DNA of 46,831 nt, from assembly GCA_013042915.1 (NCBI GenBank), contig JABDPF010000078.1, positions 1 to 46,831 on the forward strand, read 5' to 3'. The notes under the pieces were generated by a model that was given only the letters and a program-made list of their open reading frames with translations, ran no database searches and was not told where the DNA came from. Position numbers and translations under genes: made by a program. The stretch is from Lysobacterales bacterium. Its GTDB lineage: Bacteria > Pseudomonadota > Gammaproteobacteria > Xanthomonadales > SZUA-36. Every line of letters starts with the position of its first letter. Position 1 is the first letter of the stretch. Positions 9,819 to 34,348 of the stretch are shown piece after piece.

Positions 9819-12191
9819 TTAACCTCTCAGCTGGGCACCCAGACGGGATTCGAGCGCTCGGACAACCCCTTCGATTGCCGGATCCACATCTTCATCTCTT
9901 AGAGTGCTGGAAACGTTGTTGAAAATCAAGCCTATAGCGAGACTTTTGTAACCATCTTTTAGATTATTTCCTGCGTAAACATCGAAAACGACGATGTTTT
10001 CGAGGTATTCGCCGGCCTCTTCCGCGACACAGGATTCGACATCATTGAACGAGACATCTGCCGGCAACATCACAGCGATATCGCGCCTTATAGACGGGAA
10101 GCGAGAAAGCTCTTTCGCGTATGGAACTTCTCTTGTAAGCAACGGGTCAAGGTCGATTTCAAAGGCAAATACGCTCTTTTTTACATCAAATGCCTTCAGC
10201 ACCTCCGGATGCACGGCCCCGAGCCAGCCTATGCTTCTGCCATCCAGATGCATAGCTGCACTGGCGCCCGGGTGCATCCAGGGCAGGTCGCCGGCCTCGA
10301 ACGCCAAGGCCTGAGAGCGACCCTTGAGCGCAAACAGCGCTTCTACGTGCCCTTTGACATCATAAAAATCTATTTCTCTTGATGTTACGCCCCACTGTTC
10401 AGGTAAATTATCACCCGTGGCCACTGCGGCGACGCGCTCGATTTCATGCATTTCATCGCGCTGAAGAAAGGCCACGCCGGTTTCGAACAGGCGCACCCTT
10501 CCCTGCTGCCTGCGCACATTGCGGGCCAGCGAGGTCAACAAGCCCGGTAACAGGCTGGTGCGCATCACGTCGAGATCGGACGACAGGGGATTGGCCAACG
10601 GCAGCACGAAGCGGTCGTGGCCGATGATTTCCAGTTGCCGGTGATCGACGAAACTGTAGTTGATGGCCTCCTGGTAGCCGAAGGCGCACAGCATACTGCG
10701 CACACGGTCCAGGGAGACGCGATGGCCTCGCGTGGTTTCCGGCGCCAGTTCTCCCGACACCGGCGCCTCGGGTATGGCGTCGTAGCCGAAGATCCTCGCG
10801 ATTTCCTCGATCAGATCCTCTTCGATGGCGATATCGAAGCGTGATGACGGCGCGAGCACGCTCCACGCATCACCCTCGCGGCTGACCTCCATGCCGAGCC
10901 GCTCGAGAATCGATGCAATCGAGTCCTCTGGAATGTCACAGCCGATCACGGCGTTGACCCGGCCTGGCCTCAGAATGACCGGCTGGTTCGACGGAACGTG
11001 TTCCCGGGATTCGGCGACCAGGACGGGTCCGGCTTCACCGCCGGCGATTTCAATCAGCAACCGGGTGGCGCGTTCGACGGCCTGCTCCTGTCCCGCCGGG
11101 TCCACGCCGCGCTCGAAACGGTGCGATGCATCGGTGTGCATGCCAAAGCGGCGCGCCTTCCCCATGATGGTGGCGGGGTTGAAAAACGCGCTCTCGAACA
11201 GGATGTCCCGGGTCTGTGGCGTGACGCCGCTGTCGAGCCCACCCATGATGCCGGCGATGGCCACCGGGCCGCTGCGGTCACAAATCGCGAGTATTTCCTC
11301 GTCGAGCTCCGCCTCGGTTTCGTCCAGCAGGACCAGTTTCTCGCCGCTGCGAGCCCGCCGAACGATGACCTCGCCGTCGAGCTTGTCCAGGTCAAACGCA
11401 TGCATCGGCTGACCGAGCTCCAGCAAAACGTAGTTCGTCACGTCAACCGTCGGGCTGATGCTGCGCAAGCCGCATCGGCGCAGGGATTCCACCATCCACA
11501 GCGGAGTCTGTGCCGTGGGATCAATTCCGCGAACGACCCGACCGACATAGCGCGGGCAATCCTCGGGCGCTTCAAGCGTGATGGCAAATCGTGCGTCGTT
11601 GGCCGGTGCGACGGCGGGAATTTCCACGGGCGTGAATTCCGCCTCGCAACTGGCCGCCACGTCGCGGGCAATGCCGCGCACCGACAGGCAATCGGCCCGG
11701 TTGGGCGTGAGATCGACCTCGATGACGGCGTCGTCCAGCCCCAGGTACTCTGTCAATGGCTGCCCGATCGGCGCGTCCCCGGGTAATTCCATCAAGCCCG
11801 AGTGGTCGTCCGAAAGACCCAATTCACGCGCCGAGCAAAGCATGCCCGAAGACTCCACGCCTCGCAGCTTCGCTCGCTTGATTTTGAATTCTGGGCCGAT
11901 CATAGCGCCCAGCTGGGCCAGCGGCACGACGATGCCCGGCCGGGCGTTCGGTGCACCGCAAACGATCTGTAATTCCTCGCTGCCGTCGAATACCGTGCAC
12001 ACTTTGAGCTTGTCGGCGTTCGGATGCTTCTCGCAGCGCTCGATGCGGGAGACGACGACGTCGCTGAACTCGCCCGCCACGGGCCTGACATCGTCCACTT
12101 CGAGGCCGGCGGCCGTCAGCTTTGCCGCCAGGGCGTCGGCATCCAGGTCGATCGCGACCCACTTTTTCAGCCATTCAACGTTGAATTGCAT
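9819..12191 (-). CDS. pheT: Phenylalanyl-tRNA synthetase beta subunit
   Basis: The 790-residue large subunit of the (alpha-beta)2 synthetase that charges tRNA-Phe (E. coli PheT: 795). Visible parts in order are an N-terminal module ([12 protein letters not shown]), an EMAP-like tRNA-binding fold (about 40-150, [13 protein letters not shown]), the B3/B4 editing region (about 210-380), the B5 domain (about 400-475), the catalytic-like core and a C-terminal FDX-ACB anticodon-binding domain (about 695-790, [16 protein letters not shown]). It follows pheS by 24 bp on the minus strand. Nothing looks damaged. Confidence 0.98.
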
Positions 12192-12215
12192 GATGGTGTT
12201 CCTTGACCGCGCCGA

Positions 12216-13214
12216 TCAGTGGAATTGACGCAGGAATTCGAGATCGTTCTCGAAAAACTGCCGAAGGTCGGTCACGCCGTAGCGCAGCATCGCCATGCGC
12301 TCGACACCCATACCGAATGCATAGCCGGTGAATTCCTCGGAATCCACGCCGCAGCCGCGCAACACGTTGGGATGAACCATGCCGCAGCCCAGGATTTCGA
12401 GCCAGCCGGGCTCGGAACCATCGCCTTTCTCCCACCCGATGTCGACCTCGGCCGAAGGCTCGGTGAAGGGAAAGTAGGAGGGGCGGAATCGCATCGCCAG
12501 CGAACGCTCGAAGAACGCGTTCACGAACGTATGCAGCACCCCTTTCAGATCGGCCATGCTTACGTTACGGCCCACAAGCAACCCCTCTATCTGGTGAAAC
12601 ATGGGGGTGTGTGTCTGGTCAGAATCGCTGCGAAACACCTTGCCCGGAGCAATGATGCGAAACGGCGGTGCACCTTTCTCCATCACGCGAATCTGGACCG
12701 GCGAGGTGTGGGTGCGCAGCAAGCGCCCGTCGCCGAAATAGAAGGTGTCGTGCATGGCCCGCGCCGGGTGATGCGGCGGGAAGTTCAGCGATTCGAAATT
12801 ATAATGGTCGTCTTCGACTTCCGGGCCCGTGGCCACATCGAACCCCAGCTTGGTGAAGATACCGATCGCCCGCTCCATGGCCATCGTGACCGGATGCAGT
12901 CCAGCGGGCTGTTCTCCGCGCCCCGGCAAGGTCACATCCACCTTCTCGCTGAGCAGTTTCTGCTCCAGTGCGGCTGCTTCCAGCTGCTTGCGGCGAGCGC
13001 CGATGGACTGGTTAATGGCGTCGCGCGCCGCATTGACCGCCTGGCCAAAGGCTTTGCGTTGCTCGGGCTCCATCTGGCCCAGGGTCTTGAGCTGGGCAGT
13101 GATCTCGCCTTTTTTACCGAGGTAACGAACCCGGAGTGCGTCCAGGTCCGGCAGAGATCCGCTGGCGTCTATTTCGTTCAGTGCGCGTGAACGCAATTCG
13201 TCTATGGTATTCAC
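12216..13214 (-). CDS. pheS: Phenylalanyl-tRNA synthetase alpha subunit
   Basis: A 332-residue class II synthetase subunit carrying the active site for Phe activation. An N-terminal coiled coil (about residues 1-90) is followed by the catalytic domain with motif 2 ([19 protein letters not shown]) and motif 3 ([18 protein letters not shown]). The start is a GTG at 13214. In E. coli pheST is controlled by an attenuator with a Phe-rich leader peptide (pheM). The 132-bp gap between rplT and pheS here holds an inverted repeat pair instead, and I saw no Phe-rich leader. Confidence 0.98.
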
Positions 13215-13257
13215 ATTCGAAACCGCGTGGTCGTCTTACCGGGAGTTGATGTTCTCT

Positions 13258-13338
13258 GCAGGAGCGACGCCAGTCGCGAATTTACTCAATCGCGGCGGCC
13301 ATGCTGCTCGCCGGATCGTGACTGACGTCGCTCCTACA
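13258..13338. repeat. REPIN-like inverted repeat pair 1
   Basis: Two inverted copies of a REP-like unit: GCAGGAGCGACGCCAGTCGC... at 13258-13279, and on the opposite strand TGTAGGAGCGACGTCAGTCA... at 13316-13338, 36 bp apart. Each unit contains a small palindrome (GCGAC..GTCGC). A second pair with the same core is at 30283-30340. It fills the rplT-pheS gap and could form a long hairpin in that transcript. Confidence 0.85.
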
Positions 13339-13346
13339 GGAAGGTA

Positions 13347-13703
13347 TTAGCCCAGGCTGGCTTTTGCTTTTTCAGCCAGGGCGCCGAAAGCGTCCTTGTC
13401 GTGCACGGCCAGGTCAGCCAGTACCTTGCGGTCGACTTCGATTTCCGCCTTGTTCAGGCCGTCGATGAAGCGGCTGTAGGACAGGCCGAACTCGCGGGCC
13501 GCCGCGTTGATGCGGACGATCCAGAGCTGGCGGAACTGCCGTTTGCGCTGGCGGCGGTCACGGTAGGAATATTGCCCCGCCTTGGTAACGGCCTGCTTGG
13601 CGACGCGATAAACCTTGCGACGCGCACCGTAGTAACCTTTCGCTTGCTTCAGTACTTTCTTGTGTCGGGCCTTGGCCTGCACACCACGTTTTACTCGTGC
13701 CAT
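13347..13703 (-). CDS. rplT: 50S ribosomal protein L20
   Basis: A 118-residue basic protein starting [20 protein letters not shown], the standard L20 N-terminus, and ending with a globular domain ([26 protein letters not shown]). L20 binds 23S rRNA early in assembly of the large subunit. In E. coli it also represses its own operon by binding RNA upstream of rpmI. It follows rpmI by 15 bp. Confidence 0.99.
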
Positions 13704-13718
13704 TGTTCAGACCCTCCT

Positions 13719-13916
13719 TCAGGAATGCGGCAAAAGACGCTTGACGGCTTTCTTGTCGGCAGCACTGATCATGTCGGTGCCGCGCAGGCCGCGCTTACGC
13801 TTTTGGTCTTTCTTGGTCAGGATGTGGCTGTGGTAGGCGTGGCCACGCTTGAAGCCGCCCGAGGCGGTCTTCTTGAAACGCTTGGCCGCACCCCGGTTGG
13901 TTTTCAACTTGGGCAT
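13719..13916 (-). CDS. rpmI: 50S ribosomal protein L35
   Basis: A 65-residue basic protein ([20 protein letters not shown]...), the standard L35 size. The ATG at 13916 has a strong ribosome site (AAGGAG, seven bases away). The frame stays open for 32 more codons upstream, but that part is leader RNA. It is co-transcribed with rplT. Confidence 0.99.
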
Positions 13917-14064
13917 GGTCTTGCTCCTTTTTCCCCTTGCGGGGTTTACATTTGACGCTTCGGCAAGCGGCCCCGTTGGGCTCTTGGTAGCTTGGAAACG
14001 CTTCTTTTGCACCGCGCAAGCACGCGGGGATGCGTATTCTGGGCTTATTGCCCTGAATTTGCAA
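13917..14064 (-). promoter_or_regulatory. Promoter and leader of rpmI-rplT
   Basis: On the minus strand, TTGCAA (14059-14064) and CAGAAT (14036-14041) are 17 bp apart and form a good sigma-70-type promoter. The transcript would have a leader of about 115 bases. Within it CCGCG-TGCTT-GCGCGG and CCCC-GCAA-GGGG hairpins are visible, the second just before the ribosome site. In E. coli the matching region is the L20 autoregulatory site; that role here is by analogy. Confidence 0.6.
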
Positions 14065-14162
14065 GTATTTTTGCAATAGACCGCGTGCAGCCAACCGGGA
14101 TACCGGGTTTTGAAAATCGCGACGGCGCCGCTGCCCTCAATTGACCCCCGGGGCCTGGCCGG

Positions 14163-14681
14163 TCAGGTCTTTTTCGGGGCGATCATCATCACCATCTGGC
14201 GACCTTCCATGCGCGGATACTGCTCGACCACGATCTCGTCACCGAGTTCGGTCTCGACCCGCTTCAGCATGGCGGCGCCCAATTCCCGGTGTGCCATTTC
14301 GCGACCGCGAAAGCGCAAGGTCAGTTTGACCTTGTTGCCCTCGTCCAGGAATCGATTCACGTTTCGCATCTTCACCTGGTAGTCGGCTTCTTCGGTGCCC
14401 GGCCGGAACTTCACTTCCTTGACCTGCACATTCTTCTGTTTCTTTTTCTGGACCTGTGCTTTCTTGGCCTGCTCGAAGCGAAACTTACCGTAATCCATGA
14501 TTCGGCAAACCGGCGGTTCGCCGTTGGGCGCAATTTCCACCAGGTCCATGCCGGTACTTTCGGCCATTTCAAGGGCGTCATGGATTTCCATGATGCCAGC
14601 CTGCTCTCCGTCCGCGCTGATTACGCGAACCTGCGGTGCGGTAATGTCCCCATTGCGCCGCGTCTTTTTCGATGATGCGAT
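14163..14681 (-). CDS. infC: Translation initiation factor IF-3, AUC start
   Basis: IF-3 binds the 30S subunit, keeps subunits apart and proofreads start codons. The N-domain ([18 protein letters not shown], then [19 protein letters not shown]) and C-domain ([32 protein letters not shown]) are complete. No ATG fits the N-terminus: the first one in frame would cut off 30 conserved residues. The frame opens after the thrS stop with TGA-CAC-ATC, and the ATC at 14679-14681 has GGAGGA eight bases upstream, inside the last codons of thrS. This gives 172 residues (E. coli: 180). Rare AUU/AUC starts are known for infC and allow IF-3 to repress its own translation. The thrS-infC junction is tightly coupled. 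Confidence 0.95.
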
Positions 14682-14684
14682 GTG

Positions 14685-16616
14685 TCAGTCCTCCACTGGA
14701 TTTTCAGTTCGTCCCCGCCGCCCCACGGCCTCGGCAAGGTGCTTTTCAAATAGCTCGACGGTCATGCTGCCCAGGTCGTCACCGGCCCGTGTTCGAACAG
14801 CTACCGTGCCATTTTCAACTTCGCGGTCGCCGACCACGAGCAGGAAAGGCACCTTGGCCATCGTGTGCTGGCGAATTTTAAAGCCGATTTTCTCGTTTCT
14901 CAAGTCCGGATCAACCCGGAATCCTTGATTTGCAAGGGTTTGGACCACGTTCTTGCAGTAATCGCTCTGTTTGTCGGTGATGTTCATCACCACGGCCTGC
15001 ACCGGCGCCAGCCAGGGCGGAAAGGCCCCACCGTAATTTTCGATGAGGATTCCGATGAAGCGCTCCAGCGAGCCGAGGATGGCTCGGTGCAGCATGACGG
15101 GCACTTGACGCTGGCTGTCTTCATCGATGTAGGTCGCGTCGAGACGTCCGGGCATATTGAAGTCGAGTTGCAGGGTGCCACATTGCCAGACCCGTCCGAT
15201 CGTGTCTTTCAGCGAAAACTCGATCTTGGGCCCGTAGAACGCGCCCTCTCCCGGGTTGACGTCGTACTCGATACCGGCCTGGTCCAGCGAACGGGCCAAT
15301 GCCTCTTCGGCCCGGTCCCACAACTCGTCAGCACCGATACGCTTTTCGGGTCGGGTCGACAACTTGACCAGCACCTCGTTGAAACCGAAGTCCGCGTACA
15401 TGCGGTAAAGCAACTCGATAAACGCGGCGGATTCCGATTCCACCTGCTCGGGCGTACAGAAAATGTGCGCGTCGTCCTGGGTGAATGCCCGCACGCGCAT
15501 GAGCCCGTGCAGCGCGCCGGAGGGTTCGTCGCGGTGGCAGGAGCCAAATTCCGCCATTCGCATCGGCAGGTCGCGATAGCTGTGCAAACCCTGGTTATAG
15601 ACCTGTACGTGGCAGGGGCAATTCATCGGCTTGATCGCGTAGCTCCGGTTCTCCGATTCGGTGATGAACATCTCTTCGATGAACTTCTCGGCGTGTCCGG
15701 ACTTCTCCCACAGCTTGATGTCGACAACCTCCGGCGTGTTGACCTCCATGTAGCCGGCCTGCCGCAACTGCTCTCTCACGTAATTTTCCACTTCGATGTA
15801 GATGCGCCAACCGTGGTCATGCCAAAACACCATGCCTGGCGCTTCCTCCTGGAAGTGGAACAGGTTGAGCTGTTTGGCGAGTTTGCGATGGTCGCGCTTC
15901 TCGGCTTCTTCCAGGCGCGTGAGATATTGCTTGAGTTCTTTCCTGCTCGGCCAGGCCGTCCCGTATATGCGTTGCAGCATCTCGTTGCTGCTGTCGCCGC
16001 GCCAGTAAGCTCCGGCCAGCTTGGTGAGACAGAACTCTCCCAGCTTACCCGTATCGGGCACGTGCGGCCCCCTGCACAGGTCGACGAAGTCGCCCTGTCG
16101 GTAGACCGAGAGTTCCTCGCCCTCCGGCAGGTCTCTGATAATTTCCGCCTTGTACTTCTCACCCTCCTGCTCGAAAAACTGGATGGCCTCACCGCGCGAC
16201 CAGACTTCCCGTCTCACCGGCAGCGAGTCCTTGACGATTCGCCGCATCTCGGCGGCAATACGGTCCAGGTCTTCCATCGTAAATCCGGGCGGATAGGCGA
16301 AATCATAATAGAAACCGTTTTCGATAACCGGGCCGATGGTGACCTGGCATTCCGGGAACAGGCGCTCCACTGCCTGCGCCAGCAGGTGCGCCGTCGAGTG
16401 GCGAATGACCTCCAGGCCCTCGGGATCTCGGCTGGTGATGATGCGCAGCGCGGCATCGTCTTCAATCACATGGCTCGCGTCCCGCAATTGCCCGTCGACC
16501 TCGCCCGCCAGCGTAGCCTTGGCCAGGCCGGGCCCGATGTCCGCGGCCACGTCCATCACCGTGATGGGGTTGTCGAAATGTTTCTGGCTTCCGTCTGGCA
16601 GCGTAATGGCTGGCAT
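14685..16616 (-). CDS. thrS: Threonyl-tRNA synthetase
   Basis: A 643-residue class II synthetase (E. coli: 642). In order it has a TGS domain (about 1-62, [10 protein letters not shown]), an editing domain with [12 protein letters not shown], the catalytic core with the zinc ligands in [22 protein letters not shown] and [12 protein letters not shown], and a C-terminal anticodon-binding domain. I take the ATG at 16616 from the family N-terminus and the AAGGAGAA site upstream; ten extra in-frame residues before it are not family-like. It is the first gene of thrS-infC, and its mRNA leader carries a candidate attenuator. Confidence 0.98.
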
Positions 16617-16655
16617 GACCGCAATTCTCCTTCGATGTTCGTTCAACGCAGATAC

Positions 16656-16675
16656 AAAAAAAGGCGCAAAGCGCC
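16656..16675 (-). terminator. Intrinsic terminator inside the thrS leader
   Basis: Read on the minus strand, GGCGC-TTT-GCGCC is followed by seven T (plus-strand A tract 16656-16662, stem 16663-16667 with 16671-16675). It lies 40 bp before the thrS ATG with no other minus-strand gene upstream to terminate, so it is placed as an attenuator. AGAGCG (16695-16700) could instead pair with CGCTTT (16668-16673) and break it. Confidence 0.75.
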
Positions 16676-16703
16676 CAGTCCGGAACCGCCTTGCCGCTCT
16701 GTG

Positions 16704-16736
16704 CTAAAAGTGCGTAGTTCGCGCCCGCGTCATCAT
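16704..16736 (-). CDS. Candidate Thr-rich leader peptide of thrS
   Basis: A ten-codon frame encoding MMTRARTTHF then TAG. Three of ten codons are Thr (ACG, ACT, ACG), two adjacent near the end, and the thrS leader terminator follows 28 bases after the stop. This is the classic arrangement of an amino-acid attenuator. ATG lies only seven bases after the -10 box TACAAT, so translation may start on a nearly leaderless RNA. There is no conservation evidence in hand; a chance frame of ten codons is possible. Confidence 0.5.
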   Translation of the reverse strand: MMTRARTTHF

Positions 16737-16743
16737 GCCGCCT

Positions 16744-16771
16744 ATTGTACGGCCATTGCCCGTACGGTTAA
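16744..16771 (-). promoter_or_regulatory. Candidate thrS promoter
   Basis: On the minus strand TTAACC (16766-16771) and TACAAT (16744-16749) are separated by 16 bp. The -10 box matches the consensus in five of six positions. Transcription would start at or just before the leader peptide ATG and read through the terminator into thrS. The rest of the spacer up to 17048 is AT-rich near the transporter start and holds no other clear signal. Confidence 0.6.
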
Positions 16772-17048
16772 AGAAAACCATCCGTTTACGCCGCAAGCTC
16801 GGGTGCAAAAGGTTGCGCGCTTTCACCAAAGGCACGAGGGGGGGAACAGCAGCCTTCCAGCAAAAGTGCGACATTGCCGACGGCAAAGAAGCGCTTGTGG
16901 GGGGGCGTCGCTCTCAAAAATCCCAATTGATGCAACAAACCTGACCTTAATCATTTTTAACCCACCTAATCTTCACGATAATGCGCCCGTATCAGATACG
17001 CGCTTCGTCGCGCCAAGTCATTAATTAACTGGGTTTAAATTTATTATT

Positions 17049-18389
17049 ATGAAAACTAATACTATGCCGAATCGATGGTTTGTGGTAGCCGGCGCCATCC
17101 TGATCCAACTGGCCCTCGGCGCCCTGTACGCCTGGTCTGTCTTCACGCGCTTGCTGACCGATCCCGCCGGACTCTATCAGTTTACCGCTACTCAAACGGC
17201 GTGGATTTTTTCGGCGGGCCTCGCCACCTTTGCGGCGGTGATGATCCTGGCCGGCCGCTGGCTGGCTCGAACCGGCCCGCGCACGATGACCATCCTGGGT
17301 GGTCTGTTGCTGGGCCTGGGTTTCATACTGGGCGGCTTTTTCGGCACCAGTTTCTGGGCGCAATTCATCTGCATCGGCCTGCTGGCCGGCGCCGGTATCG
17401 GCCTTGGTTACGTGGTCCCGATCGCGGTGGGTGTGAAATGGTTCCCGGACAAAAAGGGCATGATCACCGGCCTTGCAGTTGCCGGCTTCGGTTTTGGCGC
17501 GACCATCTGGGTCAAACTGGCCGGTTCGTGGTTCGGCGGTCTGCTTAACTACGCCGAGGTCTTCGGCCTGCCGCCTGTGCAGAGCGTCTTCGTGATCTAC
17601 GGCTTCATTTTCGCCGCGCTCGTTCTGCTGGGCAGTATCGTCATGGTGAATCCGCCCGATGGCTACCAACCTCGCGGCTGGAAACCGGCTGACGCAGAAG
17701 CGGCCTCCTCGCTCGGCGGAACGGGCTTCGAGCCTGCACAAATGCTCAAAACGAGCCAGTTCTATTCGATCTGGGTGGTGTTCCTGTCCTCCGCCATTGC
17801 GGGCCTGATGGTTATTTATTGCATCAAGCTGTTCGGCATCGATGCGCTGGAATTCCACGGGGTCGAAAACGCCGGCATCACGACCGAGACCGCCGTGGCC
17901 TGGCTGGCCATCTTCAACGGCCTGGGACGAATTCTTTGGGGCATGATTTCCGACCGTATCGGCCGCAAGACCGCCATCATCATCATGTCGGCGCTGCAGG
18001 GCGTGGCGATGCTGATGACCTACCACGTGTTCATATTCACCGGCCAGACCACCGGGCTCGTGATCGCGGCCTGCCTGATCGGATTCAACTACGGCGGCAT
18101 CTTCGCCCTCTTCCCGGCCATCACGGCCGACTGGTTCGGCAACAAGGAAGTCGGCCGAAACTACGGCTGGGTCTTCAGTGCATATGGTGTTGCCGGAATC
18201 GTCGGCCCGCTACTGGCCGGAATTTTCAAGGACGCGGCGGCGGGCGGCAGCTCACCAATAGGCTGGATGACACCGTTCCTGATCGCCGGAATCAGCTGCC
18301 TGATCGGCGCGCTGATCATGATGGCCACGCGCCGTCCGGGCCGCAGCAAAATCAGCTCGCCCGGAAGGCTCGCGACGGACAACGCCTGA
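17049..18389 (+). CDS. OFA-family MFS transporter (oxalate/formate antiporter-like)
   Basis: A 446-residue protein with twelve predicted membrane helices in two halves, separated by a loop around residues 200-235. The opening [25 protein letters not shown] and [31 protein letters not shown]-like phrase (here [20 protein letters not shown]) are typical of the OFA subgroup of the major facilitator family. Members move small monocarboxylates such as oxalate, formate or lactate, but substrate cannot be predicted. It is a single gene with a strong terminator. The start at 17049 follows an AT-rich leader with no Shine-Dalgarno sequence. It diverges from thrS. Confidence 0.9.
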   Translation: [446 protein letters not shown]

Positions 18390-18411
18390 TCTGTTTTCCA
18401 ACGCTTGGAAC

Positions 18412-18444
18412 AAAGGCCGGCCCCTCGAGGCCGGCCTTTTTTTT
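18412..18444 (+). terminator. Terminator of the OFA transporter gene
   Basis: AAAGGCCGGCC (18412-18422) pairs with GGCCGGCCTTT (18429 onward) around a short loop, followed by a run of eight T. It begins 22 bp after the stop codon. Confidence 0.95.
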
Positions 18445-18565
18445 CGCGCCGATCCACTAACCCAGAACCCGTGCTCGGCCAAGATCTGTCTCAGGGGTCA
18501 TTCAATCACGTCAGAGCGAGTCGCATGCCCAACGAGGGACGCGCGGGAAATCAACGCCCCGACGT

Positions 18566-18610
18566 AAAAAGCCCGCAGGCCGGTTCACTGAAGAACTTCT
18601 GCCTGCGGGC
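18566..18610 (-). terminator. Terminator of tRNA-Val
   Basis: On the minus strand GCCCGCAGGC (18601-18610) pairs perfectly with GCCTGCGGGC (18571-18580) around a 20-base loop, followed by TTTTT (18566-18570). It lies seven bases after the tRNA 3' end. Confidence 0.9.
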
Positions 18611-18616
18611 CTGGAT

Positions 18617-18691
18617 TGGTGGGCACGACTAGGATCGAACTAGTGACCCCTGCGATGTCAACACAGTGCTCTACCGCTGAGCTACGCGCCC
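18617..18691 (-). tRNA. tRNA-Val(GAC)
   Basis: The minus strand forms a 75-base cloverleaf including an encoded CCA. The acceptor stem is GGGCGCG/CGTGCCC with one G-U pair. The D arm is GCTCAGCGGTAGAGC. The anticodon stem CTGTG/CGCAG encloses TTGACAT, giving anticodon GAC, and the T arm has AGTTCGATCCT. It is a single tRNA gene just upstream of, and opposite to, dnaE. Confidence 0.96.
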
Positions 18692-18850
18692 ATTGCTTCA
18701 CGCATTATACCGCGTTCAGCGGCGCGCACGATACCAAGAAACGACGCGCTCTTCAACCACTTCGGGCACCTGGGCAGTCTTGGGGTTAGGAGTCGCTGCA
18801 CCCGAATGCTGGGCCCTGAAATGGGCGCTGGCCGCTCGAATTTCATACGG

Positions 18851-27498: not shown

Positions 27499-27613
27499 GG
27501 TGACCCCCGCCGGTCCCCCCGCGACGACAAGTTGTGAACCCCGTCAGGCCCGGAAGGGAGCAGCGGCAGCAATGGACTCGGGCGCCGGGGTGTGGCGGAC
27601 GGGGGTTGCCACC
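27499..27613 (+). ncRNA. ffs: Signal recognition particle 4.5S RNA
   Basis: A roughly 115-base RNA with the conserved SRP helix-8 apex (GTCAGGCCCGGAAGGGAGCAGC), the symmetric and asymmetric loops bound by Ffh. The ends pair: GGTGACCCCCG at the 5' side with CGGGGGTTGCCACC at the 3' side. The RNA joins Ffh to target nascent membrane proteins to FtsY. Its place directly before dnaX is conserved in gammaproteobacteria. The exact ends are estimated from the pairing. Confidence 0.93.
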
Positions 27614-34193: not shown

Positions 34194-34222
34194 AGTCAAG
34201 CTTTAGCGGGGAATCGAGGAAA

Positions 34223-34307
34223 GTCCTGTTCCTACGCCGGCATTAACCGGATCAGGTTCAAAGGGTTCCTGTCGAGCAGGTCTCAGGCGTTTAGCCACCC
34301 CCAGGGA
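34223..34307 (-). promoter_or_regulatory. TPP riboswitch (THI element)
   Basis: The minus strand carries the conserved thi-box blocks in order: GGGGGTGGC...CTGAGA, then ACCC-TTTGAACCTGATC, then GGTTAATGCCGGCGTAGGAA, closed by CCTG/CAGG ends. Thiamine pyrophosphate binding would switch the operon off. TATAAC (34312-34317) is a suitable -10 box, starting the RNA right at the aptamer. It controls the receptor, YkoF-like protein, transporter and kinase. Confidence 0.95.
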
Positions 34308-34348
34308 ATGCGTTATATTGTAGCTTAATCTCTTCCTGATTGAAGCCC

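Follow-up and report, generated by a model that had tools for sequence, protein, structure and literature searches.

A likely threonine-responsive attenuator with a putatively leaderless leader in front of thrS of a Lysobacterales bacterium

The thrS locus and its parts

The stretch of DNA that was analysed (the window, 46,831 nucleotides) carries on its minus strand the threonyl-tRNA synthetase (ThrRS) gene thrS, downstream of which the genes infC, rpmI, rplT, pheS and pheT were identified by NCBIfam matches above the cut-offs. The gene infC probably starts with ATC, which lies 3 nt past the thrS stop codon and is preceded by GGAGG; from there the IF3 model is filled from position 2, residues 4-171 of the product being aligned to positions 2-169 of the TIGR00168 profile. 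Non-AUG starts are known for IF3 genes. On the upstream side, a tRNA-Val(GAC) gene (18617-18691, minus), which is found directly upstream of thrS in many relatives, is separated from it in the window by a plus-strand gene for an L-lactate MFS transporter (17049-18389, NCBIfam). Among the other features of the window are a TPP riboswitch (34212-34312, minus), the bacterial small SRP RNA (27508-27604, plus) and, in the gap between rplT and pheS, an inverted repeat TGTAGGAGCGACGTCAGTC / GACTGGCGTCGCTCCTGCA (13338-13257, minus; by eye), while no Phe leader was seen by eye before pheS of the window.

The preliminary description of this DNA, made from the letters alone, had placed in front of thrS a promoter with the hexamers TTAACC and TACAAT, a short frame with Thr codons and an intrinsic terminator, and all of these parts are present on the minus strand (Table 1). 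The two hexamers are 16 nt apart, the leader ATG follows the -10 box at 7 nt, and the frame reads ATG-ATG-ACG-CGG-GCG-CGA-ACT-ACG-CAC-TTT-TAG. By itself, however, the site of the window is near chance level and is unconvincing without the relatives: in the scan of 1 kb, one terminator-like site was met where shuffles lead one to expect 1.2, and two promoter-like sites where 0.6 would be expected, and the z-score of the leader fold was -0.45. Once the relatives are compared, the site appears well above chance, as set out below.

Table 1. Features of the thrS leader region and of the two following genes in the window
Feature	Positions	Strand	Basis
-35-like hexamer TTAACC	16766..16771	minus	promoter scan of the window
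-10 hexamer TACAAT	16744..16749	minus	window scan; TAMAAT-like hexamer in 26 family leaders
predicted transcription start, at the leader ATG or 1 base earlier	16736..16737	minus	suggested by the spacing from the -10 box
leader ORF MMTRARTTHF, putatively leaderless	16704..16736	minus	frame and Thr codons kept in the family
control codons CGA-ACT-ACG (Arg-Thr-Thr)	16713..16721	minus	family leaders: CGA before Thr 26/26, ACT 24/26
predicted antiterminator, 5' segment GCAAGGCG	16687..16694	minus	pairing of segment and terminator covaries in the family
predicted antiterminator, 3' segment CGCTTTGC, which overlaps the two arms of the terminator	16666..16673	minus	same covariation in the family
intrinsic terminator GGGCGC-TTT-GCGCC-T7	16656..16676	minus	window sequence and scan; similar terminators in relatives
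thrS Shine-Dalgarno AAGGAG	16627..16632	minus	sequence
thrS, regulated gene, ATG at 16616	14685..16616	minus	NCBIfam TIGR00418, E 6e-218, 725 bits, cut-off 384
infC (IF3), next gene, likely start ATC at 14681	14163..14681	minus	NCBIfam TIGR00168, 258 bits

Leader frames and codon usage in relatives

The thrS upstream regions of the window's order, which is probably Xanthomonadales (Lysobacterales) since it includes the Lysobacterales MAG L069, were compared in 115 cases (30 + 85 collected); one of the initial 116 (L146) was dropped because its thrS start was not found, and L176, a distant thrS copy of the genome G011, was retained. By reading of the frames, a leader ORF with Thr codons was found upstream of thrS in 86 of the 115 regions. 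With the handles f1 to f12 for the families, f1 being the window's own, the leader is present in 26/29 regions of f1, 19/20 of f12 and 3/9 of f8, in all regions of f2 (16/16), f3 (3/3), f4 (7/7), f5 (4/4), f7 (1/1), f10 (1/1) and f11 (6/6), and in none of f6 (0/1) and f9 (0/17), nor in the stray G011 copy (0/1). The MAG L069 agrees with f2 in its leader, MSTTSSQR, and in the flank CGAGCGTGCGAC. Thus, the comparison of related thrS upstream regions that had been proposed in the preliminary description returned a Thr-rich frame that is conserved and has a terminator behind it, and the logic of ribosome-mediated attenuation, which had been read there from one sequence, gained support. Two of the signs by which such attenuators are recognised, a short ORF that carries cognate codons and an intrinsic terminator, are found before thrS, and the cell can therefore probably sense threonine shortage by the position of the stalled ribosome.

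A strict automatic test, for which at least two close Thr codons and a terminator before thrS were required and which misses some true leaders, such as that of G293 (MTPRTQEITLPAF, read by eye from L314), was passed by 75 of the 115 regions of the order, as against 1/100 regions sampled in further families of the class, and 2/500 shuffles of that class sample. A pattern combining a -10 box with a start codon and the CGAAC motif, so strict that it misses the window's own leader, whose third control codon is ACG, gave eight matches in 7 of 37 genomes, all before a thrS copy, as compared with one match for the reversed control pattern. Some loci show peculiarities of their own, such as an insertion of about 200 nt between leader and terminator in L019 or a single Thr codon in the leader of L140. 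Three thrS copies occur in the genome G011 (L002, L176 and G011:C179; 84, 66 and 75% identical to that of the window), two of them with the family leader, and this bin may be contaminated. In f2 and f12 (L117-L132, L177-L196), a common stretch AGGTGGCCCGCG..CGCCGGCCGAGCGTGCGACATG with a potential hairpin (by eye) lies before the leader ATG; the five of these loci that were searched against Rfam (L117, L123, L125, L178, L193) gave no match except tRNA.

The leader has also been lost in places. Relatives that keep the hairpin without the frame, which the preliminary description had named as evidence against attenuation, do exist, but they amount to two of the 29 family loci (L008 and L022, with the promoter also retained). 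In a third family locus, L111, a long inverted repeat (GGGGTCAGAGTCAAGTGCC...) a short distance past the TACAAT box takes the place of both leader and terminator, and all three loci belong to the genus g8. The family f9 lacks the leader throughout; in six of its 17 loci (L028, L114, L116, L161, L162, L165) the ATG of thrS follows the end of a -10-like box at a distance of 8 nt, so that thrS itself may be leaderless there.

The codons at the control site are biased in the family, where CGA (Arg) directly precedes a Thr codon in 26 of 26 leaders, 24 of these Thr codons being ACT and the other two ACG, with the reservation that these counts, like the other codon counts given here, ignore shared ancestry. 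As a background, in seven genes of the window CGA makes up 9.9% of the Arg codons and ACT 6.6% of the Thr codons. Codons of the ACN type account for 71/224 in frame in the family leaders, as against 10/224 and 12/224 in the other two frames. Among the leaders with a 5' UTR, ACT is the first Thr codon in 17/17 of f2 together with L069, in 18/19 of f12 and in 6/6 of f11; all 10 leaders of f3 and f4 have ACG there instead. The likeliest reading of this usage would be that selection at the codon level has favoured codons at the control site that are read slowly; rare Leu codons are likewise known from the leu leader.

Pairing, switch geometry and alternative controls

Past the leader stop codon lies a segment that can pair with the terminator, e.g., GCAAAGCG with CGCTTTGC, GCACATGGCG with CGCCGTGTGC (L010) or CGAGCGC with GCGCTCG (L017). 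This pairing was evaluated in 27 loci (25 of the family, L025 and L029; L019, L026, L027, L030, L144, L145, L147 and L152 stood outside) by swapping the partners among loci: the native duplexes had a mean energy of -17.8 kcal/mol, as compared with -15.3 kcal/mol (sd 0.47) for swapped partners, and none of 5000 permutations was as low. With one locus per genus the z value was -3.6 (range -4.2 to -2.6 in 40 draws). The same swap test was significant in f2 (z -4.0, 0/3000) and in f3 with f4 (z -2.8, 10/3000) and not significant in f12 (z -0.7, 725/3000) and f11 (z -0.1, 1516/3000). A predicted antiterminator that excludes the terminator and covaries with it in the family, as is expected of an attenuator, is therefore indicated by the comparison. 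The weak antiterminator suggested beforehand, AGAGCG with CGCTTT, gives way to the different and stronger pairing of GCAAGGCG with CGCTTTGC. No conserved role was seen for the repeated hexamer GGGCGC, to which attention had also been drawn, and this candidate was rejected because the hexamer is missing from the leader ORFs of relatives such as L002 and L010.

For pairing of the leader with the segment in the family (the 1:2 hairpin), no signal was obtained, 1871 of 2000 permutations being as good. A conserved pause hairpin of the trp/his type was accordingly rejected for the family, as the pairing is no better than that of swapped partners, and a stem of which CGAACT would form one half is unsupported there because the pairing signal of the leader is absent. 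Without such a signal, there is nothing obvious in the family to synchronise the polymerase and the ribosome.

The geometry of the switch was modelled by folding the RNA left free by a ribosome with an assumed footprint of 8, 12 or 14 nt. At 12 nt, the mean modelled terminator probability rose from 0.40 with the A-site at ACT to 0.71 with the A-site at the stop codon, as compared with 0.76 to 0.85 for shuffled segments; the native difference of 0.31 exceeded all 60 shuffles (maximum 0.24). The outcome depends on the footprint, a rise above 0.3 being obtained in 3/27 loci at 8 nt (three fall), 10/27 at 12 nt (two fall) and 15/27 at 14 nt (none falls). For the window, the model gave 0.10 at the Thr stall, 0.56 at the stop codon (10 nt) and 0.97 three bases further. 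Since eight of the 27 loci prefer the terminator in every modelled state (L007, L014, L015, L020, L023, L024, L025, L174) and three barely form it in any (L004, L016, L021), the switch model is not valid for all loci. When all of the RNA was left free, the terminator probability averaged 0.43 over the 27 loci and was 0.01 in the window; without a ribosome the switch therefore tends in the model to read-through, unlike the attenuators of the trp type, and likewise an untranslated leader, given the RNA without a detectable 1:2 hairpin, would tend to keep the operon switched on, the reverse of what holds for that type.

Taken together, these data make it likely, to the point of good confidence, that the site controls thrS, and probably also infC, rpmI, rplT, pheS and pheT, as a ribosome-mediated transcription attenuator which responds to threonine. 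According to this proposal, RNA polymerase would start at the leader ATG or one base before it, and a ribosome would load on the bare 5' end. When Thr-tRNA is short, the ribosome is expected to stall at ACT (codon 7), which would free the RNA past the stop codon, so that GCAAGGCG could pair with CGCTTTGC and transcription would continue into thrS, with induction of the operon as the presumed result. When Thr-tRNA is plentiful, the ribosome would reach the stop codon and its leading edge would cover the start of the 5' segment of the antiterminator, whereupon the terminator would form and transcription would end near 16656.

The start of this transcript bears on how the ribosome enters. From the -10 hexamer to the start codon there are 6 nt in 10, 7 nt in 15 and 8 nt in one of the 26 family leaders; the -10 box belonged to the rule by which the family leader ORFs were chosen (26 of 29 loci satisfied it), and its presence in them is therefore partly built in. 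Equal spacing recurs in f5 (L025, L026 and L144, not L030), in f10 (L029) and in the genus g21 of f8 (L145, L147 and L152, with the leaders MKTTTKN, MKTTTTN and MKTTTIT). As an ATG at 7 nt past the box in the window means that transcription should begin at the ATG or one base earlier, the leader of the window's family is probably leaderless, a point that the preliminary description had missed. In Burkholderia cenocepacia, a TA-rich box immediately before the start codon has been described for leaderless genes (PMC4603805). The same attenuator could also be served by a start farther upstream, the ribosome reaching the ATG from a 5' UTR, as thrS leaders with a 5' UTR are known from f2, f11, f12 and betaproteobacteria, and in L009, L016 and L021 the tRNA-Val gene is the immediate upstream neighbour in the same orientation, where co-transcription is possible. 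We regard this as unlikely, because the short distance from the -10 box leaves no room for a Shine-Dalgarno sequence in any of the 26 family leaders and is repeated in the three other families, and because in the window a gene of the opposite strand stands between the tRNA-Val gene and thrS. If there is indeed no 5' UTR, translation of the leader should depend on the conditions of initiation and not on Thr-tRNA only. Hence one may think of a switch in which Thr-tRNA charging is integrated with the state of translation initiation via IF3, the product of the next gene of the operon, a doubtful extension of the proposal; raised infC expression in E. coli is stated to inhibit leaderless translation, though the reports on IF3 differ (PMC9031893).

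A leaderless attenuator has also to be weighed against controls of another nature. The E. coli thrS gene is the textbook example of an autocontrol that acts on translation through tRNA mimicry, in which ThrRS binds a tRNA-like hairpin, the operator, in its own mRNA. Such control of the window's thrS through a tRNA-Thr-like hairpin would find a precedent in the rest of the class, since operator-like hairpins were scored in 51/100 sampled families as against 21/500 shuffles, and it may thus be the usual gammaproteobacterial solution; the class hairpins near the ribosome-binding site of thrS fit the E. coli operator, and in Pseudomonas an anticodon-like hairpin, GTGACCTTTGGTAGGGGTCACCAC, lies near that site. 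It is nevertheless very improbable here, as the window region (L001) gave no operator hit, its terminator loop being TTT, and only 14 of the 115 regions of the order scored (12% vs 4% in shuffles), of which five are the attenuator terminator with GT in its loop (L011, L013, L014, L022, L030) and the other nine are scattered and mutually unlike in sequence. No T-box or other Rfam family matched the leader at E up to 1 (12000-18800) or at the gathering score, and 13 related loci gave only tRNAs against Rfam; both the operator and the T-box were accordingly rejected for the leader of the window. Scarcely credible is that the ORF with its terminator makes up an independent small RNA or small-protein gene which merely adjoins thrS: a terminated leader would indeed resemble a small RNA of about 80 nt, but all eight pattern matches in the 37 genomes stand before thrS, the conserved residues are Thr codons, and the terminator covaries with the antiterminator. 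Threonine attenuation thus remains the preferred reading.

Wider distribution and relation to known systems

Similar leaders were met beyond the order. Among seven named betaproteobacterial loci, leaders that are apparently led by a Shine-Dalgarno sequence were found in L080 (MVTRTCTRVGL), L098 (MFRTTTEAGN), L106 (MFKRTTTTRISR) and perhaps L104. Of the best 30 matches to the ThrRS of Vogesella, the first 21 (L297-L317, a cut chosen after the result had been seen), whose source genomes are presumably betaproteobacterial, include 14 with a leader (e.g., MTPRTTTTICERR), 13 of these having CGA in front of Thr; the leaders of L313 and L314 were identified by eye, being unlisted by the automatic rule. 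The other nine of the 30 comprise two f12 genomes with the leader of the order (L318, L319), a possible MWYKTTIANRI (L320), an operator-like hairpin seen by eye (L322-L324), and three loci without a clear leader (L321, L325, L326). In L312-L315, CGCGAACT within the leader pairs with a downstream [AG]GTTCGCG in a hairpin like 1:2, in which CGAACT takes part. As the Arg-Thr leaders recur in betaproteobacteria, the Arg-Thr leader looks ancestral and the leaderless start derived.

Much of the order and a number of betaproteobacteria appear to control thrS by ribosome stalling, which would be a clean case of the exchange of one control system for another at a single gene. Loss of the 5' UTR seems to have made the leader leaderless in the window's family and in certain other branches, the rare pair CGA-ACT being nearly fixed in the family, and leaderless translation would thereby be linked to an operon whose products also include IF3 and two ribosomal proteins. 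Should it be confirmed, the regulator is a compact one of about 80 nt that can be easily tested.

The preliminary description knew of no such mechanism for thrS in gammaproteobacteria, and this stands so far as no report of a gamma- or betaproteobacterial thrS leader peptide was found in searches of open-licence papers and in consulted parts of PMC8079986, PMC7298713, PMC2965389, PMC7563307, PMC9031893, PMC2330054 and PMC4603805; in the consulted part of a genome-wide attenuator survey, ThrRS appears only as the E. coli autoregulation (PMC2965389). For bacteria as a whole, a Thr leader before thrS had already been predicted, namely thrL of Streptomyces lividans TK24, which is likewise a short ORF with Thr codons and is leaderless by RNA-seq (PMC8079986). 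It differs by a single hairpin, for which the U-run was not found, and by its peptide MKRVRPFLETTPGFVPAR, with the CGA-ACT bias unmentioned in the consulted part of that report (PMC8079986). Since S. lividans is an actinobacterium, the likeness is either convergent or very ancient.

With the E. coli thrS operator, the attenuator proposed here shares the gene and the physiological aim; the operator acts on translation, and a hairpin of its kind was not found here. A survey of the attenuators of proteobacteria was reportedly made by Vitreschak and colleagues in 2004. The leader-peptide attenuators trp, his and thr of enterobacteria have in common with the thrS leader the ORF with cognate codons, the antiterminator and the intrinsic terminator; they possess, however, a leader led by a Shine-Dalgarno sequence and the 1:2 pause hairpin, while here the leader is putatively leaderless and the 1:2 hairpin undetectable. 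Leaderless entry has its own parallels: in trpL of Sinorhizobium meliloti, an alphaproteobacterial system of tryptophan biosynthesis, the attenuator RNA begins with the ATG of the leader (PMC7298713), and the cysteine-responsive short ORFs of mycobacteria are leaderless and rich in the sensed amino acid, with cysteine, another target operon and another phylum as the differences (cited in PMC9031893). Accordingly placed among these systems, the thrS leader would resemble an attenuator of the trp type in its working, but without a detectable 1:2 hairpin; threonine attenuation at thrS appears well supported by comparison, and the leaderless leader is probably its new twist.
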